Assembly: GCF_013283645.1 (NCBI RefSeq)
Contig: NZ_JABEKV010000001.1
Coordinates: 1,356,577 to 1,420,576, forward strand
From: Sinorhizobium psoraleae
GTDB lineage: Bacteria > Pseudomonadota > Alphaproteobacteria > Rhizobiales > Rhizobiaceae
Direction of reading: 5' to 3'
Length of the DNA: 64,000 nt
The stretch's first letter is position 1. The number at the start of each line of letters is the position of its first letter. Below are positions 10,167 to 49,536 of the stretch, one piece after another. The notes beneath the pieces are model-generated. The model saw only the letters and a list, made by a program, of their open reading frames with translations, was not told the origin of the DNA and searched no databases. The position numbers and the translations under genes were made by a program.

Positions 10167-10191
10167 GTCTGTTCTCCCTTTACGTTCGATG

Positions 10192-33318: not shown

Positions 33319-33350
33319 TCCCTCTCCCCGATTTCTGAAATCTCAGTCTG

Positions 33351-33462
33351 CCCCTCACCCTAGCCCTCTCCCCGCAGGCGGGGAGAGGGAACTGGACGCC
33401 TACGGCTTGCATCCTTCTCCCCGTCTCTACGGGGAGAAGGTGCCGGCAGGCGGATGAGGGGC
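33351..33462. repeat. RIME-type repeat (copy 5)
   Basis: CCCCTCACCCTAGCCCTCTC, hairpin, spacer ACTGGACGCC, second hairpin CCTTCTCCCCGTCTCTACGGGGAGAAGG, ending GCAGGCGGATGAGGGG. Between the DUF849 and carnitine dehydrogenase genes. Confidence 0.85.
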
Positions 33463-33473
33463 CGAACTCGCTC

Positions 33474-34376
33474 TTACCGCTTCTTCAGCTTCAGCTTCTC
33501 GCGGACCTCTTCCGGCCCGATGATCTTCGCGCCCATACCCTCGATGACCGAGACCGCCTTTTCGACGAGCTGGCCGTTGGTCGCGAGTTGGCCCTTGCCG
33601 ACATAGAGATTGTCTTCGAGGCCGACGCGGACGTTGCCGCCGGCAAGGATCGCCGCCGCCGGGTAGGCGAGCGCATTGCGGCCGATCGAGAAGGCCGAGA
33701 AGGTCCAGTTCGCCGGTACGTTGTTGACCATCGCCATAAAGGTGTTGAGGTCGTCCGGCGCGCCCCACGGAATGCCCATGCAGAGCTGGATCAGCACCGG
33801 ATCCTCGATCAGGCCTTCCTCGACGAGCTGCTTGGCGAACCAGAGATGGCCGGTATCGAAGGCCTCGATCTCGGGGCGGACGCCGAGTGCGGTCATCTGG
33901 CGCGCCATCTCGCGCAGCATCGACGGCGTGTTGGTCATGACATAGTCGCCGAGCGAGAAGTTCATCGTGCCGCAGTCGAGGGTGCAGATTTCCGGCAGGC
34001 ATTCGGCAACATGGGCGACGCGCTCGGTGGCGCCGGCCATGTCCGTGCCTTTCTCGTTGACCGGCAACGGGCTTTCGACATTGCCGAACACGAGGTCCCC
34101 GCCCATGCCCGCGGTCAAATTCAGCACAACGTCGACGTCGGCGGAGCGGATACGGTCGGTGACCTCTTTGTAGAGATCGAGGCGGCGGGCCGGCGCGCCG
34201 GTTTCCGGATCGCGAACATGGCAGTGAGCGACCGCGGCACCCGCCTTGGCGGCCTCGATCGCCGCGTCGGCGATCTGTTTCGGTGTGATCGGAACGTGGC
34301 CGGATTTCGAAACGGTGTCTCCCGAACCGGTGACGGCGCAGGTGATGAATACCTCGCGGTTCATGCTGAGCGGCAT
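33474..34376 (-). CDS. Beta-keto acid cleavage enzyme (DUF849/BKACE), probable dehydrocarnitine cleavage enzyme
   Basis: A 300-residue TIM-barrel protein with the BKACE zinc ligands in AHCHVRDPETG (His51 and His53) and characteristic blocks LNLTAGMGGDLVFG and GGNVRVGLEDNLYVGKGQLA. BKACE enzymes condense a beta-keto acid with acetyl-CoA and split it to acetoacetate and a new acyl-CoA. With 3-dehydrocarnitine the products would be acetoacetate and betainyl-CoA, fitting the fused dehydrogenase-thioesterase next door. Start at 34376 is supported by GGGAGAC. First gene of the minus-strand locus, divergent from an AraC/GlxA regulator. Confidence 0.9.
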   Translation of the reverse strand: MPLSMNREVFITCAVTGSGDTVSKSGHVPITPKQIADAAIEAAKAGAAVAHCHVRDPETGAPARRLDLYKEVTDRIRSADVDVVLNLTAGMGGDLVFGNVESPLPVNEKGTDMAGATERVAHVAECLPEICTLDCGTMNFSLGDYVMTNTPSMLREMARQMTALGVRPEIEAFDTGHLWFAKQLVEEGLIEDPVLIQLCMGIPWGAPDDLNTFMAMVNNVPANWTFSAFSIGRNALAYPAAAILAGGNVRVGLEDNLYVGKGQLATNGQLVEKAVSVIEGMGAKIIGPEEVREKLKLKKR

Positions 34377-34443
34377 TGCTGTCTCCCTTTTATTGAGAGC
34401 CATTACGAGCCAGAAAAGCCGTCTCTGCTTTTCATCATCAGCG

Positions 34444-34459
34444 ACATTCTATACATTCT
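34444..34459. promoter_or_regulatory. Direct repeat ACATTCT-N2-ACATTCT in the regulator/BKACE intergenic region
   Basis: Two exact heptamers 9 bp apart in the 108-bp space between the divergent BKACE and AraC-family genes. AraC proteins often bind such half-site pairs. No experimental site is known to me; this is a candidate operator only. Confidence 0.4.
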
Positions 34460-34484
34460 CGGAAGTTCGGGAGGAAGTTTCACA

Positions 34485-35456
34485 ATGGATCAATCCGTTT
34501 CGCAGTCGCAGCATGTGGATCTGCTTGTCCTCCCGGAGACGAACCTGATCCTCGTCGCCTCGGTCATCGAGCCGCTGCGGGCTGCCAACCGCATTGCCGG
34601 ACACGCGCTTTACACCTGGACAATCTTCAGTCCGGACGGCGAAGCAATCGAGACCAAGAGCGGCATCCCGATCCCCGTCGCCGGGCCCTTCCGGCCCCAG
34701 CGCGAGACGGCGCCGCTCTTCGTGCTGTCGAGCTACAGCTGGGAGCGCAGCGCCACCTCGCAACTCAGGATGCTGCTCTCGCAAACGGCGCGGCATCGGG
34801 AAGTCATGGCCGGGATCGAATCCGGCTCCTGGCTGCTCGCCGAGACCAGCCTGCTCGACAATTTTTCCGCCACCACCCATTGGGAGGACTTCGAGGATTT
34901 CGCCGCGGCCTATCCGCAGGTGACCATGGTGCGCGAGCGTTTCGTCATCGACGGCAAACGCATCACCACCGGCGGCTCGCTGCCGACGCTCGATCTGATG
35001 CTCGAACTGATCCGTCGTGCGCACGGCTATTCGCTGGCGCTCGAAGTCTCCCGCCTCTTTATCTACGAGCAGGAGCGCACGCGCGGCGATCTGCTGCAGG
35101 TGCCGGCGATCGGCAATATGCGCATTCTCGATGCCCGCGTCGGTGCGGCGGTCAAGCTGATGGCCGAGACGGTCGAGGCGCCGCTGACGCTCGCGCGCCT
35201 CGCACGCCGTGTCGGCGTCAGCGCCCGGCATCTGCAGGACCTCTTCAAGGAGGCGATGGGTGTGGCTCCGCACGAGCATTATCTCGCTCTCCGCCTCAAT
35301 GCCGCGCGCCGCAAGGTGATCGAGACGCGGATGGAGTTTGCGGACATCGCCGCGATCGCCGGGTTCAATTCCTCGTCCTCGTTCTCACGCAGCTACCGCG
35401 CCCACTATCGCGAGAGCCCCAGCGAAACGCGCCGGCGCCTGAAGCTCAAGATTTGA
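34485..35456 (+). CDS. GlxA/AraC-family transcriptional regulator, CdhR-like (carnitine regulator)
   Basis: A 323-residue regulator: an N-terminal DJ-1/PfpI-like amidotransferase domain (residues ~10-190, with VDLLVLPETNLILVASVIEP and FVIDGKRITTGGSLPTLDLM) plus a C-terminal AraC HTH pair (LTLARLARRVGVSARHLQDL and FADIAAIAGFNSSSSFSRSY). This architecture is that of GbdR and CdhR, the betaine and carnitine activators of Pseudomonas. Divergence from the carnitine genes supports a carnitine-sensing role. The ATG at 34485, with GGAGG upstream, is chosen although the frame is open much further. Confidence 0.88.
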   Translation: MDQSVSQSQHVDLLVLPETNLILVASVIEPLRAANRIAGHALYTWTIFSPDGEAIETKSGIPIPVAGPFRPQRETAPLFVLSSYSWERSATSQLRMLLSQTARHREVMAGIESGSWLLAETSLLDNFSATTHWEDFEDFAAAYPQVTMVRERFVIDGKRITTGGSLPTLDLMLELIRRAHGYSLALEVSRLFIYEQERTRGDLLQVPAIGNMRILDARVGAAVKLMAETVEAPLTLARLARRVGVSARHLQDLFKEAMGVAPHEHYLALRLNAARRKVIETRMEFADIAAIAGFNSSSSFSRSYRAHYRESPSETRRRLKLKI

Positions 35457-35539: not shown

Positions 35540-36781
35540 TCAAGTGCGGGCGGCTCCGCTTTTCATCATCCTGAACATGGCTTCGCCGGCCTGGGCCCAA
35601 AGCGCCTTTCGCGGCCAGACGAGGGTCAGGGATTGTTTGTAGGCGGGGGCGAGGCGGATCATCGCGGGCGGGCGATGGACGCGTGCGAGCGAGCTTTCCG
35701 GCAATATCGAGAGATAACCGTGATGGCTGACCAGATTGATGATCACCGGGATGGAGTCAACCTCGATCAGGGTGACGCGCCGGCGCTCGCTTTCACTGAG
35801 CGTGTCTTCCAGAAAGCGCGTCGCCTCGCGCCTCAGGCCGCTCTTGGCGCTTGGAACGGCGATCGGCGTGGTGCAGAGCAGATGGGCGAAGTCGCCGCTG
35901 ATTTCGGACAATGTTGCCGCGGCGCCTGCGAGCGCCAGCGGCGTCTCCGACACGAGCCGGCCTTCGAATTCAGTCGGAAAGTCGGCGACGTCGAGGAGCG
36001 CGGCATCGAAGCGCCGGCTCTTCAGTCCGGCGATGAGTTCATCCGCAGTCGTGCTTGAAATGAAGAGGTGCTGGCGAGGGCGGGCCGCATGCCAGGCGGC
36101 CGTCAGCGCCGCCAGCATGCGCGCGATCTCGCTCTCGGGACCGAGCGGCATCACCGCACCGAGACGCCATGTCGTCGCGTCGCGGCGAAAGCGGTCGTCC
36201 GATGCGCGCATCAGGCGTCCCCAGGATTGAAGCAGCTTTTCCACGAGCGGGATGACGGCAAGCGCTTCCTCGGTGCAGACCATCCCATGATAAGCGCGCT
36301 CGAACAGCCGGTAACCGAGATGGCGTTCGAGGCCCGCCATCTGACGCGTGAGCTGGGGTTGGCCGAGACCGAGCATCCGCGCGACGGATCGTATGCTGCC
36401 GTTGCGGGCGATCTTCACGAAACGATCAAGCGCGGCCAGGCTAACCGGAGGAATTAAGCCTGTCCTCTGGCGCTCATGGCTCCCCACAAGAAGCCTTGCG
36501 GTTTCCGCTGCCTCTGCGATTTCCGCGATGCGTGCCTGGGCCTCGAGCGTCGGCACGAGCATGGCGCCTTCGCGGCGGAGCAGCGGCACGGAAATTGTCT
36601 GCTCGAAGCGCCGTACGGCGGCGCTGACACTCGACGGCGGGCGTCCGCTGTGTTTTGCCGCACGCCGTATGCCGCCTTCACGCAGCGTCGCGTCGACAAG
36701 GACGATCGTCGCAATATCCACGATATCTACCCACGCTTCGAACAGGGATGTCGATCTGCCCTGTTCGGATTTCGGCATCAT
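35540..36781 (-). CDS. LysR-family regulator with two N-terminal helix-turn-helix domains
   Basis: At 413 residues it is about 100 longer than a standard LysR. Two HTH-like regions are visible: residues ~24-80 (VDATLREGGIRRAAKHSGRP, then AVRRFEQTISVPLLRREGAM) and ~113-172 (LDRFVKIARNGSIRSVARML, then QMAGLERHLGYRLFERAYHG). The effector domain follows from about 195. Both look like winged LysR HTHs, so this is a tandem-HTH protein. It is divergent, 74 bp away, from the ergothionase-like operon and is its likely regulator. A second ATG (36778) is equally usable. Confidence 0.85.
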   Translation of the reverse strand: MMPKSEQGRSTSLFEAWVDIVDIATIVLVDATLREGGIRRAAKHSGRPPSSVSAAVRRFEQTISVPLLRREGAMLVPTLEAQARIAEIAEAAETARLLVGSHERQRTGLIPPVSLAALDRFVKIARNGSIRSVARMLGLGQPQLTRQMAGLERHLGYRLFERAYHGMVCTEEALAVIPLVEKLLQSWGRLMRASDDRFRRDATTWRLGAVMPLGPESEIARMLAALTAAWHAARPRQHLFISSTTADELIAGLKSRRFDAALLDVADFPTEFEGRLVSETPLALAGAAATLSEISGDFAHLLCTTPIAVPSAKSGLRREATRFLEDTLSESERRRVTLIEVDSIPVIINLVSHHGYLSILPESSLARVHRPPAMIRLAPAYKQSLTLVWPRKALWAQAGEAMFRMMKSGAART

Positions 36782-36855
36782 TCGTTCCGAATTTGGGATA
36801 TATCACGCATTGGCACTGTGCGCATAGCATGCTCGCAAAAGAGGTTCGTTCCGGC

Positions 36856-38394
36856 ATGCTGCAATCGGTCAAGACCATCGTCCTGTGCGGAAAACCGCTC
36901 GACTTCGGGGTACTCGAAGAGATCGGCGTCGGGTTGGCGCGGCCGGTCGCCGACGATAGCGGCATGGAGCGGGTTGCCGCCGCCCACAAGGTGGTTGCCG
37001 ACCGCGTCGCCATGGGGTTGCCGGTCTATGGCTCCAACACCGGCGTCGGTTCGATGAAGGACCGCCTCTGGACGGCCGACGATCTCGCCGAATTCAACAC
37101 GTCGCTTGTGCGCGCCCATCACTTCGGCACGGGCGAATTCTTTGCCGCGCCGATCATCCGCAAGGCGATCGCCATCCGCGTGAACACCGCGATGCGCGGG
37201 CATACCGGATGCAGCCCCGAACTTATCAACGCCTTCCTCGCGCTTCTGGAGCGCGGAATCGTTCCGGCTGTGCGCCGCCACGGCTCGATGGGCTGCGCCG
37301 ACATCGGGCTGATGGGGCAGGTGGCCTCAGTATTGACCGGTGTCGGCGACGCCTATTTCAACGGCCAGCTCATGACGGCCGAATCGGCGTTGAAAGAAGC
37401 GGGGCTGAGCCCTTTCGTCATGCGGCCGCGCGATGCGCTGGCCGCGCTGAGCGTCAATGCGATCTCCTATGCGGCCGCCGCAGATGTCCTGCGCGAGGCG
37501 GCGGCGGCGATCCGCGTCCTGCTCGTCACCGGCGTCATGTCGTCGCGCGCGCTCGGCGCCTCCGCCGATCCCTGGCTCGTTGCGGCGACGCTTTCGACCC
37601 GCGGCGAAGCGCTTGTCGGGTCCTGGCTCTACGGCCAGTCGGGCATCGCCGATTGGCCGCTGCCGACCGCGATCCACGATCCGTTGAGCCTTCGCATGAC
37701 CGCCCAGGTCTTTGGCGCGGTCGTCGATACCCTGCTGGTGGCCGCCGGCCGGCTTGTCGAGGCAACCTATCTCTCGGATGACAACCCGGTGGTGCTTGGG
37801 GGGCAGGTGCATTCATCCGGCGCTTCCCTGCCATTGACGACGACGCTCTATATCGAGGCGGCGCAGGTCGCCTTCTCGCATGTGGCGCGCAATGTCTTGA
37901 ACCGCTGTATCCTGCTTTCCAACGGCGGGCGGCGCAATCTCTCGGTCAATCTCGTCGCGCCCGGGGAGGTCGCCACGGGGCTTGGGCCGTTGATGAAGCT
38001 CGCGGTCGAGCTCTATATGCGCGTCCAGTCACTCGCCGTTCCCTTGTCCGCCCAATCGATCGTCGTCGCCGGAGGGCTGGAAGAGGAGGCGACCTTCCTG
38101 CCGCTGATTGTCGAGCGCATGGAAACGCAGGTCCGCGATCTCAGGCAGCTCGCGGCAATCGAGGCGATGCTGTCGGCGCAGGCGATGGATCTCGTCGGCG
38201 ACGAGCCGTGGGGCGTCGTCAAGCTGGCCTACGATCGCACTCGCACGGTCAGCCCGATCTACCTCAAGGACCGGCCGCTTTCGAAGGAGATCGAAGCGCT
38301 GCAGGCGGCGTTCACTGATCACGACCTGTCGCGCGCTTTCGTCGAGACGGCGCCGATGCCGGAATTCGACGACTTTTTTGCGCTGGCCAAATAA
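36856..38394 (+). CDS. HAL/PAL-superfamily lyase lacking the MIO tripeptide; probable ergothionase (ergothioneine trimethylamine-lyase)
   Basis: A 512-residue member of the histidine/aromatic ammonia-lyase fold (VYGSNTGVG with Tyr58; LSVNAISYAAAADVLREAAA; YLSDDNPVV). The position of the Ala-Ser-Gly that forms the MIO electrophile in real ammonia-lyases reads Cys147-Ala148-Asp149 (HGSMGCADIGLMGQ, codons 37294-37302), so MIO cannot form by the known route. Ergothionases, which eliminate trimethylamine from ergothioneine to give thiourocanate, are MIO-free members of this fold. The downstream genes encode the remaining steps of that pathway. Start at 36856 fits AAGAGG upstream; ATG 36829 lacks a site. 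First gene of the operon. Confidence 0.82.
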   Translation: MLQSVKTIVLCGKPLDFGVLEEIGVGLARPVADDSGMERVAAAHKVVADRVAMGLPVYGSNTGVGSMKDRLWTADDLAEFNTSLVRAHHFGTGEFFAAPIIRKAIAIRVNTAMRGHTGCSPELINAFLALLERGIVPAVRRHGSMGCADIGLMGQVASVLTGVGDAYFNGQLMTAESALKEAGLSPFVMRPRDALAALSVNAISYAAAADVLREAAAAIRVLLVTGVMSSRALGASADPWLVAATLSTRGEALVGSWLYGQSGIADWPLPTAIHDPLSLRMTAQVFGAVVDTLLVAAGRLVEATYLSDDNPVVLGGQVHSSGASLPLTTTLYIEAAQVAFSHVARNVLNRCILLSNGGRRNLSVNLVAPGEVATGLGPLMKLAVELYMRVQSLAVPLSAQSIVVAGGLEEEATFLPLIVERMETQVRDLRQLAAIEAMLSAQAMDLVGDEPWGVVKLAYDRTRTVSPIYLKDRPLSKEIEALQAAFTDHDLSRAFVETAPMPEFDDFFALAK

Positions 38395-38425
38395 GCGGGC
38401 AGAGTGAACGGGAAGGGAAAGAGCA

Positions 38426-39808
38426 ATGTCCGATTTCGATCTCGTTCTGAAAGGCACCGTCGTCCTGCCGCACCGTATCGTCGAGGGCGGACACGTGGCG
38501 GTCCGCGACGGCAAGGTCGTGCATGTCGGGCAGGGCGCTGCACCGGCGGCTCGCGAACGGCACGACCTCGGCAAGGCGCTGATCCTGCCCGGCGCGATCG
38601 ATGCCCAGGTGCATTCGCTGTCGCAGAAGAATCAGGAAGACTTCATCTGGTCGACGCGCTCGGCTGCCGCTGGTGGGGTGACGACGATTGTCGACATGCC
38701 CTACGACGAGGGCAATCTCGTCTCATCGGCGGAAGCGGTCAGGCGCAAGATCGCCCATGCCGCTCCGCGGGCCCGCGTCGACTTTGCGCTCTATGGCACC
38801 ATTGATCCCGAGGAGGGACCGTCACGGATCGGCGAGATGGTGGAGGCAGGTGTTGCCGCCTTCAAGTTCTCGACATTTGGAACGGACCCGAAACGTTTTC
38901 CGCGAATTCCTGCCGCGCTATTGGAAGAGTGCTTCCGGGCTATCGCTCCGACGGGACTGACCGCCGGCGTTCACAATGAGGATGATGAGGCGGTGCGGGC
39001 CGCGATCGATAAGGTCAAGGCAGCAGGGATCACGGACTATCGGGCGCATGGGCTTTCGCGTCCGCCTCTGACGGAGCTGCTTGCCACCAACCAGATCTAT
39101 GAAACGGGGGCGGCAACTGGCTGCCCAGCACATGTGGTGCATTGCTCGCTCGGGCGTGGCTACGAAATCGCTGCCGCCTACCGGGCGCTGGGTCATGCGG
39201 CGACGATCGAGTGCTGTATTCACTATCTGACGCTGGACGAGGAAAACGACGTGCGCCGCCTCGGCGGCAAGGCCAAGATCAACCCGCCGATCCGGCCGCG
39301 CGCGGAGGTGGAAAAACTCTGGCGGCATGTGGCTGGCGGCAATGTCACTCTGGTTTCGACCGATCATGTGAGCTGGTCGGAGGATCGCAAGACCAATCCG
39401 GATATGCTCGCCAACGCCTCCGGAGTGCCGGGCCTTGAGGTGATGGTGCCGCTTTTCGTCAAGGGTGCGCTGGAGCGCGGCATTCCGCTGACGCGCGCCG
39501 CCGAGCTTATGGCGCTCAACCCCGCACGGCACTTCCACCTCGACCATTGCAAGGGGGCACTCGAAGCCGGCAAGGATGCCGATATCATCGTCATGACGCC
39601 GGAATCCTATGTCTATGATGCGGCCGAAAGCGGTAACAATGTCGTCGGCTGGTCGCCCTATAACGGTATCCGCCTGCCGTGGCGGGTCTCCGCCACCTAT
39701 CTGCGCGGCCGGCTCGCCTTCGATGGCAGCCGGGTCGTGGCCGAGCCCGGTACCGGAGCGTTCGTGCGGCCGTTGCCGAGCCTGCCACTTCAGGAGGCGC
39801 GGCAATGA
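38426..39808 (+). CDS. Amidohydrolase, dihydropyrimidinase/hydantoinase type; probable hydantoin-5-propionate hydantoinase
   Basis: A 460-residue cyclic amidohydrolase. Metal-site residues: Asp59-x-Gln61-x-His63 (PGAIDAQVHS, where most members have HxH), carbamylated Lys147 (AAFKFSTFG), His183 (GVHNEDDE), His239 (HVVHCSLGRG) and Asp313 (VSTDHVSWSED). Gln for the first His is known in some dihydroorotase-like proteins but departs from D-hydantoinases. In the proposed pathway it opens hydantoin-5-propionate to N-carbamoylglutamate. It lies 31 bp after the lyase gene with GGGAAGGGAAAG upstream, and its stop overlaps the next start (ATGA). Confidence 0.82.
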   Translation: MSDFDLVLKGTVVLPHRIVEGGHVAVRDGKVVHVGQGAAPAARERHDLGKALILPGAIDAQVHSLSQKNQEDFIWSTRSAAAGGVTTIVDMPYDEGNLVSSAEAVRRKIAHAAPRARVDFALYGTIDPEEGPSRIGEMVEAGVAAFKFSTFGTDPKRFPRIPAALLEECFRAIAPTGLTAGVHNEDDEAVRAAIDKVKAAGITDYRAHGLSRPPLTELLATNQIYETGAATGCPAHVVHCSLGRGYEIAAAYRALGHAATIECCIHYLTLDEENDVRRLGGKAKINPPIRPRAEVEKLWRHVAGGNVTLVSTDHVSWSEDRKTNPDMLANASGVPGLEVMVPLFVKGALERGIPLTRAAELMALNPARHFHLDHCKGALEAGKDADIIVMTPESYVYDAAESGNNVVGWSPYNGIRLPWRVSATYLRGRLAFDGSRVVAEPGTGAFVRPLPSLPLQEARQ

Positions 39809-41073
39809 CCGCAACGCAAACCAATCTGCCGATCGATGCGCGGCGCATCGCCGAGATCGTCAAAGGGCTCGCGCGTATCACCGAGCCCGATCGCCCCTAT
39901 ACCCGGCGGGCCTTCACCCCGCTCTTCCTCGAAGGTCGTGCCTTCCTCGAAGAGCACTTCAGGGCGGCGGGCCTCGACACGAGGATCGATGCGGCCGGTA
40001 ACCTCATCGGCCGGCGCAAGGGCCGCAAGCCGGCACTCGGCACGATCATGCTCGGCTCGCATTCCGACACGGTGCCGGAGGGCGGCCGCTTCGACGGGAT
40101 CGCCGGCGTCGCAGCGGCGCTCGAAGTAGCGCGATCGCTCGCGGATGCCGGCATCGAGCTCGATCATGATCTGGAGATCGTTGATTTCCTTGCCGAGGAG
40201 GTGTCGATCTTCGGCGTTTCCTGCGTCGGCAGCCGCGGCATGGCCGGGCTTATTCCGGATGGCTGGCTGAGCCGCACTCACGACGAGCTGACGCTCCGCC
40301 AGGGTATCGTCGAGGCCGGCGGCGATCCTTCCCGTCTGCCGTCGTTGAAGCGGTCCGACATCAAGGCGTTTCTGGAGCTGCACATCGAACAGGGGCCGGT
40401 GCTCGAGGCCGAGCGCCTCGATATCGGCGTCGTAACGGCAATCTCCGGCATCACCCGCATCGAGATCATCGTCGAGGGGCAGGCGGATCATGCGGGCACG
40501 ACCCCGATGGGCCGCCGCCGCGATGCGCTGGTCGCCGCCTCGCGGCTTGTGCTCGAGATCGAGAAGCTCGGCTTTGCCCATGCTGCAGGCGAGGGCCACT
40601 TCACCGCGACCGTCGGCGAATTCGAGATCGAACCCAATGCCGCCAATGTCGTGCCCTCGCGGGCACGGCTCTTGATCGATGCCCGCGCGGAACTGAGGTC
40701 GCAGATGGAGGTGTTCATCAGCGACATCGAGGCGCTTGCCGCCCGCATCGCCGAGGAAACCGGCGTCGCGATCACGCCGCCGAAGGTGATCTCCGACAAT
40801 CACCCGACACCCGGAGACCCCTGGGTTCTTGCGACGCTGGAAGCGGCCTGTGGGCGCGTCGGCGCTCGACATCGGCTGATGGCTTCCGGCGCCGGACACG
40901 ACACGGCATGGATGGGCCGGATAACGAAGGCCGCGATGATCTTCATTCCCTGTCGCGACGGCCGGTCGCATGCGCCCGAGGAATGGGCGGAGAATGACGA
41001 CATCGCGCTTGGCGCGGCCGTGCTGTTCGAGGCCGTGCGACGGCTCGACGGGCAATTGCAGGAGAAGACGTAG
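39805..41073 (+). CDS. M20-family N-carbamoyl-amino-acid amidohydrolase; probable N-carbamoylglutamate amidase
   Basis: A 422-residue HyuC/AllC-type metal-dependent hydrolase. Seen: metal ligands in GSHSDTVPEGGRFDGIAGV, the acidic pair FLAEEVS, ELHIEQGPVLE, the dimer-domain substrate motif QADHAGTTPMGRRRDA and the C-terminal His in GRSHAPEEW. The family hydrolyses N-carbamoyl-L-amino acids to amino acid, CO2 and ammonia. Next to a hydantoinase and a DUF917 gene, N-carbamoyl-L-glutamate is the expected substrate, giving glutamate as pathway end product. AGGAGGC precedes the ATG at 39805; the frame is open further upstream but overlaps the hydantoinase gene. Confidence 0.88.
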   Translation: MTATQTNLPIDARRIAEIVKGLARITEPDRPYTRRAFTPLFLEGRAFLEEHFRAAGLDTRIDAAGNLIGRRKGRKPALGTIMLGSHSDTVPEGGRFDGIAGVAAALEVARSLADAGIELDHDLEIVDFLAEEVSIFGVSCVGSRGMAGLIPDGWLSRTHDELTLRQGIVEAGGDPSRLPSLKRSDIKAFLELHIEQGPVLEAERLDIGVVTAISGITRIEIIVEGQADHAGTTPMGRRRDALVAASRLVLEIEKLGFAHAAGEGHFTATVGEFEIEPNAANVVPSRARLLIDARAELRSQMEVFISDIEALAARIAEETGVAITPPKVISDNHPTPGDPWVLATLEAACGRVGARHRLMASGAGHDTAWMGRITKAAMIFIPCRDGRSHAPEEWAENDDIALGAAVLFEAVRRLDGQLQEKT

Positions 41074-42171
41074 ATGGGCCGGATACTGACGGAAAAGGAT
41101 GTCGAGGCGGCGGTCAAGGGCGGTTCCGTCTATGCTGCGGGCGGCGGCGGCTGGGCCGATCACGGGCGCATGCTCGGATATGCGGCCGTTTCGATCGGCA
41201 AACCGGAACTGGTTTCGATCAACGAGCTGGAGCCGGACGACTGGGTGGCGACCGCCGCTGCAATCGGCGCGCCGGCTTCGACGACGCCGTGGGAGATGCG
41301 CGGCGTCGATTACGTGAAGGCGGTGGAACTGCTTCAGGAGGCGCTCGGTGAAAAACTCACCGGCCTGATCGTCGGGCAGAACGGCAAATCCTCGACGCTG
41401 AATGGCTGGTTGCCCTCGGCGATCCTCGGAACCAAGGTGGTGGATGCCGTCGGCGATATCCGCGCCCATCCGACGGGAGATATGGGGTCGATCGGCCTTG
41501 CCGGTTCGCCCGAACCGATGATCCAGACGGCGGTCGGGGGAAACCGTGAGGAGAACCGCTATATCGAGCTCGTGGTCCGGGGTGCGACGGCAAAGGTGTC
41601 GCCGATCCTGAGGACCGCGGCAGACATGTCAGGCGGCTTCATCGCCTCCTGCCGCAATCCTGTCCACGCGTCCTACGTCAAGGCCAATGCCGCGCTCGGC
41701 GGCATTTCCATGGCGCTGACTCTGGGAGAGGCGATTATCGCTGCGGAAGGCAAGGGCGGCAGCGCCGTAATCGATGCGATCGCAAATACCACCAACGGCT
41801 CCATTCTTGCCGAGGGAACGATCACGGATAAATCCGTCGTCTATACCAAGGAGGCCTTCGACATCGGCACGGTCACGCTCGGGAGGGGCGATGACTCAAC
41901 GGTACTTCATGTAATGAACGAGTACATGGCCGTGGAAACGCCGGACGGTGCGCGCCTTGCGACCTTCCCGGACGTCATCACCACGCTGTCGCCGGAGGGT
42001 GAACCTTTAAGCGTCGGGCAGTTGCAGGTGGGCATGACGGTCTTCGTGCTGCATGTGCCGAAGTCGGTGATCCCGCTCGCCTCCAGCGTACTCGACCCGT
42101 CCGTCTATCCGTCGGTCGAAAAGGCGATGGGGATCGATATTGCACGCTACGCCCTGGCGGGGAAGCGTTGA
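41074..42171 (+). CDS. DUF917 protein; probable thiohydantoin (or S-methyl-thiohydantoin) desulfurase
   Basis: A 365-residue DUF917 protein with family blocks GGSVYAAGGGGWADHG, INELEPDDWVATAAAIGAPA, TPWEMRGVDYVKAVELLQEA and GAAVTL-type C-terminal folds. DUF917 has been renamed for S-methyl-thiohydantoin desulfurase activity, the step that replaces sulfur by oxygen on the thiohydantoin ring. Here it would convert 3-(5-oxo-2-thioxoimidazolidin-4-yl)propionate to hydantoin-5-propionate with release of sulfide or methanethiol. The ATG follows the previous stop codon with no gap. The function is inferred from the family name and operon; single-protein DUF917 members are poorly characterised. Confidence 0.8.
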   Translation: MGRILTEKDVEAAVKGGSVYAAGGGGWADHGRMLGYAAVSIGKPELVSINELEPDDWVATAAAIGAPASTTPWEMRGVDYVKAVELLQEALGEKLTGLIVGQNGKSSTLNGWLPSAILGTKVVDAVGDIRAHPTGDMGSIGLAGSPEPMIQTAVGGNREENRYIELVVRGATAKVSPILRTAADMSGGFIASCRNPVHASYVKANAALGGISMALTLGEAIIAAEGKGGSAVIDAIANTTNGSILAEGTITDKSVVYTKEAFDIGTVTLGRGDDSTVLHVMNEYMAVETPDGARLATFPDVITTLSPEGEPLSVGQLQVGMTVFVLHVPKSVIPLASSVLDPSVYPSVEKAMGIDIARYALAGKR

Positions 42172-42183
42172 CGGGAGGGCGAT

Positions 42184-42513
42184 GTGGCGCGCGATACCGG
42201 GCTTGAGGAACTGGTGAAGCAAGACCTCGGCGATCAGCCGGGGCTTTCGGAAAAGCCGATGTTCGGTGGTTTGGCCTTTCTCCTGAACGGCAATTTGCTC
42301 TGCGGCGCCCGCGAGGATGGAATGCTGGTGCGGCTTGGCAAGGGCAACGACCACTGGGCCTTGGCGCTGCCCGGCATCGTGCAGATGGTGATGGGCGAGC
42401 GCCGGATGCACGGCTGGGTGCGCGCCGGGGTGGAGGCCTATGGCGATGATGCTTTGCGTCGGCGCCTGCTGGATGCGGCGCTCAGCTACGTGTTTTCGCT
42501 GCCGCCGAAGTGA
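42184..42513 (+). CDS. TfoX/Sxy N-terminal-domain protein
   Basis: A 109-residue protein matching the TfoX N-terminal domain (KPMFGGLAFLLNGNLLCGAR, MLVRLGKGND, MHGWVRAGVEAYGDD). TfoX regulates competence in gamma-proteobacteria, but small stand-alone versions are widespread with unknown roles. The start is GTG with GGGAGG upstream. It lies 12 bp after the DUF917 gene and before a RIME repeat, inside the ergothionase-like operon; its link to the pathway is unclear and may be accidental. Confidence 0.8.
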   Translation: MARDTGLEELVKQDLGDQPGLSEKPMFGGLAFLLNGNLLCGAREDGMLVRLGKGNDHWALALPGIVQMVMGERRMHGWVRAGVEAYGDDALRRRLLDAALSYVFSLPPK

Positions 42514-42536
42514 ATGAACGAGGGTGTTGTGGTGCG

Positions 42537-42646
42537 CCCCTCATCCGCCTGCCGGCACCTTCTCCCCGCAGGACGGGGAGAAGGGACATGCCTCGCCCTT
42601 CCCGTCCGATCTCCCCGCTCGCGGGGAGAGGGTTAGGGTGAGGGGC
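42537..42646. repeat. RIME-type repeat (copy 6) inside the ergothionase-like operon
   Basis: CCCCTCATCCGCCTGCCGGC with hairpin CCTTCTCCCCGCAGGACGGGGAGAAGG, then CTCCCCGCTCGCGGGGAG and GGTTAGGGTGAGGGG. It separates the TfoX-like and urocanase-like genes; its in-frame reading makes a false N-terminal extension of the latter. Confidence 0.88.
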
Positions 42647-42682
42647 AAAGACACGACCGCCACGCACAAAGGAACGACCGCC

Positions 42683-44341
42683 ATGCCCAAGCCCAATCCC
42701 CGTCATCCGAACTTTCCGATTCCCGGCGGGCCGGGCCTGCGTGCCAAGGGCTGGCGGCAGGAAGCGCTGCTGCGGCTTCTCGAAAACGTCCTTTCCGTCG
42801 GGGAGGATCCGGACAATCTCGTCGTCTACGCCGCCCTCGGCAAGGCCGCGCGCAACTGGCCGTCCCATCGGGCCATCGTCAAGACGCTCACCGAGATGGA
42901 CGAGGACCAGACGCTGGTCATCCAGTCGGGCAAGCCGGTCGGTCTGTTGAGAACCCATGCCAAGGCGCCGCTCGTCATCATGGCGAATTGCAACATCGTC
43001 GGCCAATGGGCCAAAGCCGAGGTCTTCTATGAGCTGCAGCGAAAGGGGCTGATCTGCTGGGGTGGGCTGACGGCAGGCGCCTGGCAATATATTGGCAGCC
43101 AGGGGGTGATCCAGGGCACCTATGAGATCTTCATGCGGATTGCCGAGCGCCGCTTCGGCGGCGATCTTTCCGGACGTTTCGTGCTGACCGCCGGGCTCGG
43201 CGGCATGGGTGGCGCACAGCCGCTTGCCGGCCGCATGGCGGGGGCCGCCATCCTCTGCGTCGATATCGATCCGGAACGCGCAAAGAAGCGCCAGCAGGTC
43301 GGCTATCTTCAGGAGATCGCGCCTGACCTCGACGCGGCGCTCGCGATGATCGACGCGGCGGTCAGGGAGAAAAAAGCCCTCTCGGTCGGGCTCGTCGGTA
43401 ATGCCGCCGAGATCTATCCGGAGATCGCCCGGCGCGGTGTCGTTCCCGACGTGGTGACCGACCAGACCTCTGCGCATGATCTCGTCTACGGCTACGTGCC
43501 GAAGGGGATGAGTCTCGACCAGGTGCGGTCGCTGCGCGAAGACGGACAGGGCCAGCTGATGGCGGCAAGCCGCGCGTCGATCGTCGAGCACGTGAAGGCG
43601 ATGCTCGATTTTCAGAGAAAGGGCGCCGAGGTCTTCGACAACGGCAACCTGATCCGCACGCAGGCGCGGGAAGGGGGTGTTGCCAACGCCTTCGACATCC
43701 CGATCTTCGCCGAAGCATATCTCCGTCCGCTTTTTGCCCGCGCCATCGGCCCGTTCCGCTGGATGGCGCTTTCCGGCGAGGAGAGCGACATCGCGCGGAT
43801 CGACGACCTGCTCCTCGAAATGTTCCCGGAAAACCGGATCATCACCAACTGGATCCGGCTCGCGCGGCAGCATATCCCTTTCGAGGGGCTGCCGGCGCGC
43901 ATTGCCTGGCTCGGCCATGGCGAACGCACCGCGCTCGCGCGGAGCGTCAATCAACTGGTCGCCAGCGGTGAACTCAAGGGGCCGATCGCGTTTTCGCGCG
44001 ATCACCTCGATGCCGGCGCGATGGCGCATCCGAACATCATGACGGAGCGGATGAGGGATGGCTCGGACGCGATCGCCGATTGGCCGCTCCTCGACGCCAT
44101 GCTGCTCTGCTCCTCGATGGCCGACCTTGTCGTCGTCCATTCTGGCGGCGGTGGCTATGCCGGTTACATGACGAGCTGCGGCGTGACGGTCGTTGCCGAC
44201 GGCACGAAGGCGGCCGACGAAAGGCTCGACCACGCGCTGACCAACGACACGTCGCTAGGGGTCATCCGTTATGCCGATGCCGGCTATGACGAGAGTTTCG
44301 AGGAGATCGCCAGCAAGGGCATCGGCCACGTGCGGGTGTGA
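42683..44341 (+). CDS. Urocanase-family hydratase lacking the signature cysteine; probable thiourocanate hydratase
   Basis: A 552-residue urocanase-fold protein with the NAD-binding stretch LGGMGGAQPLAGRMAGAA, WGGLTAGAWQYIGSQG, DQTSAHDLVYGYVPKG and RDHLDAGAMAHPN. In urocanases the signature F-Q-G-L-P-A-R-I-C-W holds a conserved active-site-region Cys (Cys410 in Pseudomonas putida). Here it reads FEGLPARIAW, with Ala408 (codon 43904-43906). With an MIO-less lyase upstream and hydantoin enzymes in the operon, hydration of thiourocanate rather than urocanate is likely. The ATG at 42683 has AAAGGA upstream; longer frames read through the RIME repeat. No hutI gene is present. Confidence 0.83.
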   Translation: MPKPNPRHPNFPIPGGPGLRAKGWRQEALLRLLENVLSVGEDPDNLVVYAALGKAARNWPSHRAIVKTLTEMDEDQTLVIQSGKPVGLLRTHAKAPLVIMANCNIVGQWAKAEVFYELQRKGLICWGGLTAGAWQYIGSQGVIQGTYEIFMRIAERRFGGDLSGRFVLTAGLGGMGGAQPLAGRMAGAAILCVDIDPERAKKRQQVGYLQEIAPDLDAALAMIDAAVREKKALSVGLVGNAAEIYPEIARRGVVPDVVTDQTSAHDLVYGYVPKGMSLDQVRSLREDGQGQLMAASRASIVEHVKAMLDFQRKGAEVFDNGNLIRTQAREGGVANAFDIPIFAEAYLRPLFARAIGPFRWMALSGEESDIARIDDLLLEMFPENRIITNWIRLARQHIPFEGLPARIAWLGHGERTALARSVNQLVASGELKGPIAFSRDHLDAGAMAHPNIMTERMRDGSDAIADWPLLDAMLLCSSMADLVVVHSGGGGYAGYMTSCGVTVVADGTKAADERLDHALTNDTSLGVIRYADAGYDESFEEIASKGIGHVRV

Positions 44342-45347: not shown

Positions 45348-46166
45348 TCACTCCCCGGATTTGCTTTTCTTTTCGCGCATCAGAAGGCGCGCTGTCAGGA
45401 TCAGGAGCAGCGAGGCGACCAGAACCAGGGTCGCGATCGCATTGATTTCCGGCGTCACGCCGCGGCGGATCGAGGCGAAGACATAGATCGGCAGGGTCGT
45501 CTTCGAACCCGCGACGAAGAAGGCGATGATGAAATCGTCGAAGGAGAAGGTGAAGGCGAGCAGGAAGCCGGCGAGGATCGACGGCAGGATCTGCGGCAGC
45601 ACAATCAGGCGGAAGGTGGTGAGTGGCGTCGCGTAGAGGTCGCTCGACGCCTCGACGATGTCGCGGCCTAGGCTCGCGATCCGCGCCTTGACGATCATGG
45701 TCACCAGCGCCATCGAGAAGAGACCGTGGGCGGCGATGATCGAGCCGTAGCCGAGACCGAGCTGCGGTGGCCGATTGCCCGGCCAGATCGTCGCGAGGGC
45801 GGGATTGACGAAGGAGAAGACGGCGACCAACGCAACCAGCGTGGCAATGCCGATGACCACGCCTGGCACAACGATCGCCGCAGCGAACAGGGCATCGAAG
45901 ACGGCGCGTGTGCGCGGCCCGAGCCGCTCCATGCCGAGTGCTGCCATGGTGCCGAAGATGGCGGCGAGCGCAGCACTCGTAAAGGCGATCATCAGGCTGT
46001 TTTGCAGGGCTGCGACCAGGAACGTATTGCCGAGGGCCTTGCCATACCAGGCTGTCGAGAAGCCGGTGAACTCGCTCGCATTGCGGCCGGCATTGAAGGA
46101 GAACAGCACGACCGGCGCGATCGGCGCGTAGAGAAAGAGATAGACGGAGAAGACGAAGGCGCGCAT
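45348..46166 (-). CDS. ABC transporter permease, PotC-like
   Basis: A 272-residue permease with a leading helix (FVFSVYLFLYAPIAPVVLF) and EAA loop EASSDLYATPLTTFRLIVLP. The ATG overlaps the PotB-like stop (ATGA). It forms the channel with that permease in a binding protein/ATPase/permease/SDR operon of the spermidine/putrescine-betaine class. Substrate undetermined. Confidence 0.88.
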   Translation of the reverse strand: MRAFVFSVYLFLYAPIAPVVLFSFNAGRNASEFTGFSTAWYGKALGNTFLVAALQNSLMIAFTSAALAAIFGTMAALGMERLGPRTRAVFDALFAAAIVVPGVVIGIATLVALVAVFSFVNPALATIWPGNRPPQLGLGYGSIIAAHGLFSMALVTMIVKARIASLGRDIVEASSDLYATPLTTFRLIVLPQILPSILAGFLLAFTFSFDDFIIAFFVAGSKTTLPIYVFASIRRGVTPEINAIATLVLVASLLLILTARLLMREKKSKSGE

Positions 46167-47032
46167 CAGACGAGATCCACCTGTCTTGTGCCGGCGACTT
46201 TCCAGGCGATCCGCATCGCCACCATCAGCACCACGACGACCACGGCGACGAGCGTGACGGCGATCGCGGACCCGAAAGGCCAGTTGCGCGATTGCAGGAA
46301 GAGGTCGACCAGCGCATTACCGATGAAGAAGACCTTGCCGCCGCCGAGGAGCTGCGGGATCAGGTATTCGCCAAGGAGCAGGATGGTGACGAGCGCGACT
46401 CCGGTCATCACGCCCGGCAGGGAGAGCGGCAGCGTGACGCCGAGGAAGGTGGAGACCGGTCTGCCGCCAAGATCGGCGGAGGCCTCGAGCAGCCGGCGGT
46501 CGAGCTTTTCCAGGCTTACATAAATCGGCATGATCATCAGCGGCAGATAGCCGTAAACGATGCCGAGCAGCACGGCGCCTGGCGTGTTCAGCATACGAAC
46601 ATCCTCGATGCCGATCATCGAGAGGAGATTGGGGATGCCGCGCGAACCGAGGATGTACATCCATGCGTAGGTGCGCACGAGCAGGCTCGTCCAGAACGGC
46701 ACGACCACAAGCGAAACGAGGATGAGGCGATAGCGCGGGTTCGCCTTGACGGCGAGGTAATAGGCGACGGGGTAGGCGACCAGCAGGCAGAGCAGGGCGC
46801 CGGCGGGCGCCAGCACCAGCGTATTCCAGAAGGCTGCCGCCCGCGTTGGCAGGTTGGCGAACTGCGCGAAGGTGAAGGCGGCCTGGTAACCACCCTCCGG
46901 TGCGCGCTCGCCGAAGGCAAAGACCAGCATGGCGATGAAGGGGAGTACGAGAAAGACCGAAAGCCACGCCGCCGCCGGCGCCACCAGCGCCGCCGTCACC
47001 AGGTTTCTCTTCGTGTTCATTGCCGCTTGCAT
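46166..47032 (-). CDS. ABC transporter permease, PotB-like
   Basis: A 288-residue permease starting MQAAMNTKRNLVTAALVAPA, with EAA loop EASADLGGRPVSTFLGVTLP. The frame is open into the RIME repeat upstream, so that extension is discarded. Starts at 47032 and 47020 are both weakly supported by ribosome sites. It pairs with the PotC-like permease. Confidence 0.86.
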   Translation of the reverse strand: MQAAMNTKRNLVTAALVAPAAAWLSVFLVLPFIAMLVFAFGERAPEGGYQAAFTFAQFANLPTRAAAFWNTLVLAPAGALLCLLVAYPVAYYLAVKANPRYRLILVSLVVVPFWTSLLVRTYAWMYILGSRGIPNLLSMIGIEDVRMLNTPGAVLLGIVYGYLPLMIMPIYVSLEKLDRRLLEASADLGGRPVSTFLGVTLPLSLPGVMTGVALVTILLLGEYLIPQLLGGGKVFFIGNALVDLFLQSRNWPFGSAIAVTLVAVVVVVLMVAMRIAWKVAGTRQVDLV

Positions 47033-47063
47033 GAGATCCGGTCCGTCAGAATGCACTTGAAAG

Positions 47064-47225
47064 CCCCTCATCCGGCCTGCCGGCCACCTTCTCCCCGCAA
47101 GCGGGGCGAAGGGGACTCGTCGCGCCGCTTCGTTTCCTCTCGTCGCTGGCGTGAAGAGGGCTCTCGCGGCTTGTCCCTTCTCCCCGTCAGAACGGGGAGA
47201 AGGTCGCGGCAGCGGGATGAGGGGC
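47064..47225. repeat. RIME-type repeat (copy 7, two facing halves) inside an ABC operon
   Basis: Starts CCCCTCATCCGGCCTGCCGG and ends with the inverted CGCGGCAGCGGGATGAGGGG. Both ends are versions of the same half facing each other, unlike copies 2 and 6. It lies between the binding-protein and permease genes. Confidence 0.85.
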
Positions 47226-47244
47226 AAACGCGCCCTATTCTCGC

Positions 47245-48405
47245 TCACGCCGACTTGAAGCGCGCCATCAGCTCGGCGCGGCCAGGGTCGGTCAACGTCA
47301 CGGCGGCGCCAAATTCGAGCGGGGTCAGCGCCGCTTCGTCCGGATAGACGATCTTGTTCGAGGTTACCTCGGCCGGCAGCAGCTTCAGGACGCGACTGTC
47401 GGTCGTCGGTGCGCCGTTGGCGATGTGTTCCTTGACGGCGTTTTCCGGCGTCATCAGGTAGTTGAGCAGCGCATAGCCGGCGGCCTTGTTGGCGGCGCTC
47501 TTCGGGATGGCATAGAAATCCGACCAGATCTCGCCGCCGTCCTTGCCGAGCACGAACTGAATTTCCGGCATGTCACGGTTGAGCTGGGCGCCGTCATTGG
47601 TCCAGCACATGGTCATCCAGGCGTCGGTCGCGCGCATCGACGGCTGGTAATCGCTGTTGATCGCATAAAGATGCGGCTTCACCTTGATCAGGAGTTCCTC
47701 GGCCTTGGCAAGTTCGTCCGGCTTGACGGAGTTGAAGGAGTAGCCGAGCGAAACGAGCGCATTGCCGATAGTGGTGAGCTGGTAGTCGTGCACCATGGCG
47801 CGGCCGTCCGCCTCGGTCATCGCCACTTCGAAGAACTCCTTCCAGCTCGTGACCGGCGCCTTGATCTTGGAAGAGTTCACCGCGATGCCGGTCGTGCCCC
47901 AGTTCTTCGGCACGGCATAGGTCTTGCCGTCGACGATGCCTTCGTTGGTGAAGCGCGCGGTCTCGGTCGAGGCGTCATAGTTCGGCAGTTTCGACATATC
48001 GAGCTCATCGATGAGGCCGAGCTTCACATAGGTCGAAATCGTGTAGTTCGTCGGCACGAAGAGATCCCAGCCGGTGCCGCCCGCCTGGAGCTTCGCCAGC
48101 ATTTCCTCGTTCGAGCCGAAGACATTGACCTCGACGGCAACGCCGGTCGCGGCCGTAAAGGCCTCGAAGGTGGCGGGATCGTGGTAGTTCGGCCAGGTCG
48201 CGATCGACATCTGCGTGCCGAGATCGCCGGCGAAGGCGGTGGAATTGAAGAGGCCGGGCTGGCGCGCGAAGACGGCGGTCGCAAGGCCGAGGCCGGTGAC
48301 GCCGAGGAAGTGCCGGCGGGTGACCGAACCGCGCTTCAGACGCATCAACTCGTCGGCAAGCTTGTCGGCGGTAACCGGGGCATTCTCTCTGTACCACTTG
48401 GTCAT
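47245..48405 (-). CDS. ABC transporter periplasmic binding protein, PotD/PotF-like, Tat-exported
   Basis: A 386-residue family 1 binding protein with a twin-arginine signal (TRRHFLGVTGLGLATAVFA) and mature start resembling the polyamine binders (MSIATWPNYHDPATFEAFTA). Further motifs are WDLFVPTNYTISTYVK and VPKNWGTTGIAVNSSK. It would bind a cationic amine or betaine in the periplasm. Second gene of the operon after the ATPase; followed by a RIME repeat. Because the operon ends convergent with the ergothionase-like operon, ergothioneine uptake is a testable but unsupported idea. Confidence 0.86.
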   Translation of the reverse strand: MTKWYRENAPVTADKLADELMRLKRGSVTRRHFLGVTGLGLATAVFARQPGLFNSTAFAGDLGTQMSIATWPNYHDPATFEAFTAATGVAVEVNVFGSNEEMLAKLQAGGTGWDLFVPTNYTISTYVKLGLIDELDMSKLPNYDASTETARFTNEGIVDGKTYAVPKNWGTTGIAVNSSKIKAPVTSWKEFFEVAMTEADGRAMVHDYQLTTIGNALVSLGYSFNSVKPDELAKAEELLIKVKPHLYAINSDYQPSMRATDAWMTMCWTNDGAQLNRDMPEIQFVLGKDGGEIWSDFYAIPKSAANKAAGYALLNYLMTPENAVKEHIANGAPTTDSRVLKLLPAEVTSNKIVYPDEAALTPLEFGAAVTLTDPGRAELMARFKSA

Positions 48406-48456
48406 GATGCTGTTCCCTTATCGTTGACGTGCAGTGATGGCAGCAGATCCGGCAGC

Positions 48457-49536
48457 TCAGGCCGGGAAGACGTGAAGCGCGTTCGGGTCGAAGGCGAGCC
48501 CGATTCTTTCGCCGGGTTCCGCGAGATCGTTTTCGTTGAGGCTCCGGCGGTCGGCAGTCACCAGAAAGTCGCCGAGGCCATCGACCTCAATCGAGTATTC
48601 AACCGACGAGCCCAGGAAGATGCGGTGCGTCACGGTGCCTTGAAGCGTCGCTCTCCCATTGCGGACGAGGCTGATCGCTTCCGGGCGGAGTGCAACCATG
48701 GCCGCGCCGAGCGTACCGTTTGCGCTCGCTGGTTTCGCAAGGCCGACGCCGTTCGCCAGCCGGATCGAATTCGTGCCGGCGTCAATGGTGGCGGCAATGC
48801 GGTTGGTCTTGCCGACGAAGTCGGCGACGAAGAGGCTCGCCGGGCGGTCGTATATCTCCTCCGGCGGGCCGATCTGGACGATCCGGCCGGTGCTCATGAC
48901 GCAGACGAGATCACTCATCGACAGCGCCTCTTCCTGATCATGGGTGACCAGCACGAAGGTGATGCCGAGTTCACGTTGTAGGCTCTGGAGCTCGATCTGC
49001 ATGGCCGTCCGCAGCTTCTTGTCGAGAGCGGCTAGCGGTTCGTCGAGGAGCAGCACCTTCGGCTTGTTGACGATGGCGCGGGCGAGCGCCACGCGCTGCT
49101 GCTGTCCGCCTGACATTTCGTGAATGCGGCGCTTGCCGAAGCCGCCGAGGCGGACCATCTCCAGCGCCTCCTGCGCCCGGCGGGCAATTTCGGCGGCGGC
49201 GATGCGCGGGCGCATCTGCTTCAAGCCATAGGCGACGTTCTGTTCGACATCGAGGTGCGGGAACAGCGCATATTGCTGGAACACCATGTTGACCGGCCGC
49301 CGATAGGCAGGCACGCCGTTCATCGGATGACCGCCGATAAAGACCGTGCCCTCGCTCGGTTGCTCGAAGCCGCCGATCATGCGCAGGCATGTCGTCTTGC
49401 CGCAGCCGGAGGGGCCAAGCAGCGCAACGAACGCACCCTTTGGTACAGCGAGGTTGATGTCCGATACGGCCGTGACGCTGCCATAGCGTTTGGCGACCGA
49501 ACGGAATTCGATGTCGTTCGTCGAAGCGGATGTCAC
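48457..49536 (-). CDS. ABC transporter ATPase, PotA-like
   Basis: A 359-residue ATPase with Walker A GPSGCGKTT, Q-loop VFQQYALFPHL, signature MSGGQQQRVALARA, Walker B LLLDEPLAALD, switch LVTHDQEEALS and a C-terminal TOBE region. First gene of the transporter operon. Start is GTG at 49536 with AGGGAAC upstream. It is divergent from the LuxR gene; the intergenic region holds TATACCCC repeats. Confidence 0.9.
   Translation of the reverse strand: MTSASTNDIEFRSVAKRYGSVTAVSDINLAVPKGAFVALLGPSGCGKTTCLRMIGGFEQPSEGTVFIGGHPMNGVPAYRRPVNMVFQQYALFPHLDVEQNVAYGLKQMRPRIAAAEIARRAQEALEMVRLGGFGKRRIHEMSGGQQQRVALARAIVNKPKVLLLDEPLAALDKKLRTAMQIELQSLQRELGITFVLVTHDQEEALSMSDLVCVMSTGRIVQIGPPEEIYDRPASLFVADFVGKTNRIAATIDAGTNSIRLANGVGLAKPASANGTLGAAMVALRPEAISLVRNGRATLQGTVTHRIFLGSSVEYSIEVDGLGDFLVTADRRSLNENDLAEPGERIGLAFDPNALHVFPA

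Follow-up and report, generated by a model that had tools for sequence, protein, structure and literature searches.

Ergothioneine, a fungal antioxidant, is broken down in bacteria by five successive reactions, the order of which is well established. The whole five-step pathway was reportedly reconstituted by Beliaeva, Leisinger and Seebeck in 2021 (ACS Chem Biol 16:397), so that the gene cluster discussed here belongs to an already described type. It lies in a stretch of 64,000 nucleotides (the window) on contig C1 of the 7.43-Mb genome of Sinorhizobium psoraleae and, as judged from its sequence, very probably represents an ergothioneine-utilization (ert) operon. All five enzyme families of the reconstituted pathway are also encoded here, four of them above the NCBIfam equivalog cut-offs, whereas a divergent lyase, an extra TfoX_N gene, and a LysR-type regulator with two helix-turn-helix (HTH) domains in tandem plus an upstream element set the window apart. 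Added to the described type are the tandem-HTH LysR, the conserved element (36792-36831), a fast-evolving branch of rhizobial lyases, and cluster versions devoid of the lyase.

The ergothionase of Treponema denticola (6s7j/6s7q) has in common with the window lyase the fold, the loss of the 4-methylideneimidazole-5-one (MIO) triad with a one-residue deletion, and the motifs S-x-N-A and D-P-L; the window lyase (28.8% identity) differs by Cys-Ala for Glu-Gly in the pseudo-MIO and by His for Gln before D-P-L. An ergothionase of Burkholderia sp. HME13 is said to have been described by Muramatsu in 2013, and a plasmid locus of Burkholderia arboris (L128), presumably of the HME13 type, served as its proxy. 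There, a lyase with the same motifs is encoded near a thiourocanate hydratase and a desulfurase (70% and 69% identical to those of the window), whereas the lyase itself is 30.7% identical, and the hydantoinase and M20 proteins are divergent (47% and 44%) and encoded on the opposite strand. Histidine ammonia-lyase (HAL, HutH) and urocanase (HutU) share superfamily and fold with the window proteins, but the latter are without the MIO triad and the catalytic Cys and, in the case of the lyase, far under the hutH cut-off.

In the Rhizobiaceae, Agrobacterium radiobacter contains an ergothionase according to a passage of a review that cites a 2011 thesis. With this enzyme and a sulfonate pathway on record, ergothioneine degradation in this family is not new as such; no paper on an ergothioneine operon in Sinorhizobium was found among open-licence PMC texts. 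The accessible part of a 2026 paper describes ergothionase as confined to a small set of genera. That survey relied on a BLAST search with a single Burkholderia sequence, and the paper cautions that divergent homologs went uncounted. Lyases like that of the window are ~30% identical to the characterized type and have no model of their own among the NCBIfam families listed; counts of the trait in bacteria of soil and roots are therefore probably too low. A further arrangement is seen on pAt of Agrobacterium tumefaciens Ach5 (L135), where DUF917, urocanase, M20, and hydantoinase homologs lie together; unlike the window, this cluster (40-65% identity) includes genes for a molybdopterin S/N-oxide reductase and a glutathione S-transferase family protein and shows no lyase match, and it may possibly serve S-methyl ergothioneine or ergothioneine sulfonate.

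Gene order and family assignment of the operon

Family and equivalog assignments of the window proteins are based on NCBIfam 20.0 models with curated cut-offs, and domains on Pfam. The operon comprises the following genes:

36856..38394, + strand: MIO-less ammonia-lyase homolog, probable ergothionase (ergothioneine trimethylamine-lyase), 512 aa; best PDB match 6s7j (E 6.1e-57), with fold match and shared motifs
38426..39808, + strand: hydantoin-5-propionate amidohydrolase (ErtD type), 460 aa; NF058538, 794.6 bits (cut-off 600)
39805..41073, + strand: M20 N-carbamoyl-L-glutamate amidohydrolase (ErtE type), 422 aa; NF058540, 608.6 bits (cut-off 520)
41074..42171, + strand: thiohydantoin desulfurase of the DUF917/S-Me-THD family, 365 aa; NF058529, 599.4 bits (cut-off 440)
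42184..42513, + strand: small protein with TfoX_N domain, 109 aa; PF04993, 38.6 bits (cut-off 30.1)
42683..44341, + strand: thiourocanate hydratase of the urocanase family with Ala in place of the catalytic Cys, 552 aa; NF058530, 1058.6 bits (cut-off 930)

Four of the five enzymes thus belong to ergothioneine-pathway families by equivalog cut-offs. An earlier note on this DNA had read the cluster as ergothioneine catabolism, and this fit holds, the nearest solved relative of the fifth protein, the lyase, being an ergothionase with shared changes in the active site. Its placement of five enzyme genes on one strand at 36856-44341 is exact at both ends, and its description of overlapping or abutting middle frames is borne out: the hydantoinase and M20 frames share 4 bases, and the DUF917 gene starts immediately after the M20 stop. 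The gene list stands for the five enzymes, whereas a sixth open reading frame (42184-42513), the TfoX_N gene between the DUF917 and urocanase genes, had been overlooked. The latter is matched in 33 of the 56 lyase-based loci, a set found in named records with the window lyase as query, in which a gene is counted as present at a coverage of at least 70%. It also occurs in four distant loci (L053-L056).

The urocanase homolog passes the hutU model (694.8 bits, cut-off 375) and reaches 1058.6 bits on that of thiourocanate hydratase. Its best PDB match is 7ned (E 3.1e-245; file title urocanate hydratase), which we take to be a thiourocanate hydratase. As the earlier note had recognized in calling it Cys-less, the protein reads GLPARIAW where HutU encoded elsewhere in the same genome reads GLPARICW, the Cys of which presumably corresponds to C410 of the Pseudomonas putida urocanase; the catalytic Cys is replaced by Ala. 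The M20 protein scores higher on the unspecific NF009531 'Zn-dependent hydrolase' model (683.7) than on the ErtE model (608.6). An S-methyl pathway was rejected, since the urocanase homolog on the S-methyl thiourocanate hydratase model (744.7, cut-off 880) and the DUF917 protein on the S-methyl thiohydantoin desulfurase model (286.3, cut-off 450) both remain under the cut-off.

According to the proposed mechanism, the MIO-less lyase would eliminate trimethylamine from ergothioneine to give thiourocanate, which thiourocanate hydratase would convert to 2-thiohydantoin-5-propionate. The DUF917 enzyme would then exchange sulfur for oxygen, yielding sulfide and hydantoin-5-propionate, the hydantoinase would open the ring to N-carbamoyl-L-glutamate, and the M20 amidase would remove the carbamoyl group, forming glutamate, ammonia, and CO2. 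Ergothioneine could in this way serve the bacterium as a source of nitrogen, carbon, and sulfur.

The expectation that automatic annotation would hide the pathway was right in part: models in NCBIfam 20.0 exist for four of the genes, whereas PLSDB records read 'DUF917', 'urocanate hydratase', and 'amidohydrolase', and the sole annotated PLSDB record seen with such a lyase reads 'aromatic amino acid ammonia-lyase'. As a side observation, all 90 hydantoinases compared (from two partly redundant locus sets that share genomes, e.g. L037/L079, and thus not 90 independent genomes) show D-[AG]-Q-x-H or a similar motif where two aligned hydantoinases of solved structure have H-x-H. The first His of the latter motif is presumably metal-binding, so that in the pathway hydantoinases a metal-binding His is replaced by Gln.

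The lyase and its probable substrate

The lyase carries the Pfam domain Lyase_aromatic and scores 199.9 bits on the NCBIfam hutH model, the cut-off of which is 539; no ergothionase model is among the eight NCBIfam families listed for it. In a PDB search, the T. denticola ergothionase 6s7j ranks above HALs, and 6s7j is also the top match of the AlphaFold model of the lyase (mean pLDDT, the predicted local distance difference test, 76.8) in both fold searches (Foldseek: E 8.5e-24, HAL 3.0e-22). The protein thus combines a HAL-like fold with the lack of the Ala-Ser-Gly MIO triad. Its pseudo-MIO reads G-C-A-D, one residue shorter than G-A-S-G-D in HutH of the same genome, in agreement with the earlier description as MIO-less; the corresponding sites of T. 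denticola (G-E-G-D) and B. arboris (G-E-A-D) are also one residue short. The N-G-T-Q motif of HAL is changed to S-V-N-A in the window lyase, S-C-N-A in T. denticola, and S-S-N-A in B. arboris, and D-P-Y to D-P-L in all three. The comparison lyase of B. arboris adjoins a thiourocanate core of its own.

These features recur in a survey of 75 lyases (the 56 lyase-based loci and 19 lyases outside the window clade): a two-residue pseudo-MIO is found in 74 (69 Cys-Ala, 4 Cys-Gly, 1 Glu-Ala), L118 being broken, and S/G-x-N in 73, while one row has D-Q-L in place of D-P-L. A tree splits the ERT and HAL rows by one branch with support 100/99; this unrooted tree contains long branches, and the rows of T. 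denticola and Burkholderia meet at an open fork. Kinship of the active site to ergothionase is shown at the sequence level, where the residue comparison appears more telling for the identity of the lyase than the fold match. With the lyase only ~29-31% identical to the known and comparison lyases, ergothioneine would be its probable rather than its established substrate.

Several observations weigh against this assignment. Identity of the lyase to the T. denticola ergothionase is 28.8% and to the B. arboris lyase 30.7%. The position before D-P-L, which we take to be that of HAL Gln277, is occupied by His in all 56 window-clade loci and in L138, and by Gln in the other 18 of the 19 lyases outside the clade. 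In the AlphaFold model, the active-site loops are of low confidence, and the fold Z scores for 6s7j (35.7) and HAL (35.2) are tied, as are all that differ by less than 1. A second HAL-like protein of the genome (C1:853340-854710; L144, ~9254-10711) is also without the Ala-Ser-Gly triad and has D-P-L, so that these two traits alone are no proof of an ergothionase; it keeps N-G-T, reads GSVGYLTDA at the triad site, scores 463 of 539 bits on the hutH model, and is encoded in a locus with hutF and ABC transporter genes. With regard to gene context, the lyase of L063 (51%) has none of the other four genes within 20 kb, the L059 stretch is without hydantoinase and M20 genes, and the desulfurase directly follows the lyase in L136. 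No transporter is encoded within the operon, a weak EgtD-like match (38.8 bits, without any NCBIfam match) is present in the genome, and 17 of the 31 lyase-bearing genomes in a sample from the window's family are without trimethylamine monooxygenase (Tmm).

Some of these points would also fit a lyase of different specificity. In that case, the core would handle thiourocanate, whereas the lyase of the rhizobial clade would prefer a thio-imidazole betaine or amino acid other than ergothioneine from which thiourocanate likewise arises (e.g. a less methylated 2-thiohistidine), or oxidized or S-modified ergothioneine would be taken first. We consider this unlikely. It is consistent with the His at the Gln277 position in the window clade, with a lyase that diverges far faster than the core (in distant rhizobial loci ~52-54% identity, compared with 82-89% for the hydratase), and with an ergothioneine sulfonate catabolic pathway that is in print and, in the part of the source available, cited for A. 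radiobacter. The divergence forms a continuum with largely constant motifs, which argues against this alternative, as do the S-methyl models that remain under their cut-offs and the betaine transporters linked at two loci.

Identity to the window lyase runs from 99-68% through 55-50% and 42-43% to ~31%, and a sharp replacement of the lyase between clades was not supported. Judged by the alignments, the rhizobial lyases are a fast-evolving, divergent branch, a point added by this analysis. Doubtful, though conceivable, is a more extensive proposal, in which they would form a separate branch of MIO-less betaine lyases with a site rebuilt (Cys-Ala; Gln277 to His) for another leaving group or thio-imidazole, feeding a transferable 'thiourocanate module' that would come with a tandem-HTH LysR sensor of its own and one conserved operator and would also exist without lyase as a thiourocanate scavenger.

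A divergent histidine-utilization set (hutH/hutU paralogs with accessory hydrolases) is very improbable and was rejected: the urocanase homolog does exceed the hutU cut-off (694.8 vs. 375) and the lyase falls within Lyase_aromatic, but the MIO triad and the catalytic Cys are lost, the hutH score is low (200 vs. 539), hutH and hutU lie together elsewhere in the genome in addition to the hutF locus at a third place, where the second HAL-like gene is found, and DUF917, hydantoinase, and carbamoylase proteins are not known to act in histidine use. The closest relatives are accordingly not a true HAL and urocanase, the outcome that the earlier note had named as speaking against its interpretation (thiourocanate hydratase 1059, hutU 695).

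Regulator, upstream element, and distribution

Upstream of the lyase gene lie the following features:

35540..36781, - strand: LysR-type regulator, divergent from the lyase gene, with an N-terminal pair of HTH_1 domains (Pfam), probable regulator of the operon
36792..36806, + strand: conserved operator-like element TTTGGGATATATCAC, holding a T-N11-A LysR-type box
36822..36831, + strand: second conserved block GCATAGCATG, visible in upstream sequences, possibly a promoter -10 or a second half-site of the regulator

T-N11-A is the box motif of LysR-type regulators. Upstream of the first gene, a CATAGCAT-like block comes ~30 bases after the start of TTTGGGATATNNCA; the latter has a single exact copy in the genome, and TTTGGGATATNNCAC matches the window at up to 2 mismatches only once, before the lyase. 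Over 75 upstream regions (a survey without L063, as no core genes lie beside its lyase), the best match to the element shows 0 mismatches in 43, 1 in 10, 2 in 16, 3 in 3, and 5-6 in 3, the consensus being drawn mainly from the window clade. Outside this clade, 14 of 17 loci have a match with at most 2 mismatches, in comparison to 37 of 3400 dinucleotide-preserving shuffles; 6 of the 17 had already been inspected before the pattern was settled, and 8 of the other 11 pass, several of these sharing a genus. Loci whose stretch yielded no LysR gene (L053-L056), or one that does not diverge from the first gene (L131, L129), still have the element upstream of their catabolic genes. A larger regulon was rejected: with up to 1 mismatch allowed, the genome gives 10 matches to the element and 8 to the reversed control, which leaves only the exact copy as meaningful.

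The tandem arrangement of HTH_1 domains was found by a Pfam search of the window protein, and the N-terminal segment is kept in an alignment of 65 LysR sequences (the window's included; rows under 80% coverage dropped), among them those of lyase-less clusters of Paracoccus and Thalassospira. The divergent tandem-HTH LysR would probably switch the operon on through the TTTGGGATAT element, a presumed pairing. Together, element and regulator are candidates for sensing ergothioneine or thiourocanate. Open-licence PMC texts yielded no paper on the tandem-HTH regulator or the upstream element.

The five genes occur in the same order and on the same strand in 53 of the 56 lyase-based loci, which makes the arrangement more than chance. 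The three exceptions are L117 and L118, with single pieces under 70% coverage, and L084, on a contig that stops short of the last gene. In some strains (L117, L118, L119), the pathway genes look broken, with partial coverage or in pieces. Nearest among lyases in named records are those of Sinorhizobium sp. 8-89 (99%) and S. terangae (96%), in a listing that may omit the window's own record. Within the family sample (n = 297, own genome included), the lyase is present in 31 genomes (window's included; E <= 1e-60); none of the 4 other sampled genomes of the window's genus has it, although it does occur in further Sinorhizobium and Ensifer genomes among the named records.

The lyase is much less conserved than the hydratase, desulfurase, and hydantoinase; across four distant loci from a single genus, for example, the hydratase is 89% and the lyase 54% identical to those of the window. 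In 2 of 13 distant loci (L059, L061; the other 11 were judged by gene matches and spacing only), genes for an OpuAC/OsmF-type glycine-betaine ABC transporter separate the lyase from the core, which fits a betaine substrate. A plasmid search with the lyase returned 223 records, 222 of them with less than 60% identity; among the 40 listed, the annotated ones are all hutH/histidine ammonia-lyase except for one mixed row.

Clusters without a lyase in the stretch are seen on Paracoccus aminophilus pAMI4 (L129) and Thalassospira marina pCSC3H3 (L130), where LysR, hydantoinase, M20, DUF917, and hydratase genes lie with a TRAP transporter nearby; thiourocanate scavenging is a possible function. To extend it to the window, i.e. 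to suppose that the main task of the core is to scavenge thiourocanate that other microbes excrete, with the lyase as a secondary addition, is hardly credible. The two plasmid clusters with their transporter would fit, as would cross-feeding of thiourocanate between gut bacteria, described in the accessible part of PMC13405746, but the lyase gene heads the five genes, beside the conserved element, both in the window and in 53 of 56 loci, and its absence in P. aminophilus and T. marina refers to the stretch and not to their chromosomes, which were not searched.

Genome context and trimethylamine use

For an ergothioneine-utilization operon, the substrate would have to come from outside, as no EgtB over the cut-off is encoded in the genome (best match 67.5 of 360 bits). 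The earlier note had called the operon complete, which applies to the enzymes and not to uptake, for which no cognate transporter is shown; we infer both an uptake route and growth on ergothioneine. An OsmF-type binding protein encoded elsewhere in the genome, at ~982 kb of contig C23, is 75% identical to one in the linked distant loci. A polyamine-type ABC transporter next to the operon (45348-49536, - strand) was not supported as cognate uptake system: no subunit is named for ergothioneine, the TTTGGGATATNNCAC match lies only before the lyase, and some loci, among them L082 and L083, show none of its genes in the stretch, the locus flanks being of differing length.

On another contig (C2), the genome encodes Tmm (850.7 bits, cut-off 675), a trimethylamine N-oxide (TMAO) demethylase (Tdm; 1268.9, cut-off 1100), and a TMAO permease (842.1, cut-off 690). 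The cluster (L164, 415-11723) also holds genes for FolD, a GcvT-like protein, and heme-type N-demethylase subunits. With these functions, the trimethylamine released in the first step could be used, and it would probably be oxidized by Tmm, Tdm, and the heme-type N-demethylase. Together with the trimethylamine/TMAO enzymes, the operon would give a Sinorhizobium a complete and testable route to draw nitrogen and sulfur from a fungal thiol. Trimethylamine use as a regular accompaniment of the operon was rejected: Tmm is present in 14 of 31 lyase-bearing and 43 of 266 other genomes (Fisher p 0.0004), but by genus in 5 of 13 and 17 of 96 (p 0.13); the excess at the genome level may therefore reflect shared ancestry.

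Beside the operon (31828-35456) lie genes for a carnitine dehydrogenase-thioesterase, a BKACE enzyme, and a GbdR-like AraC regulator. Among the 56 lyase-based loci, the carnitine dehydrogenase is matched in 54 and the BKACE and regulator genes in 55. The operon and the carnitine genes are two trimethylammonium catabolic units side by side.

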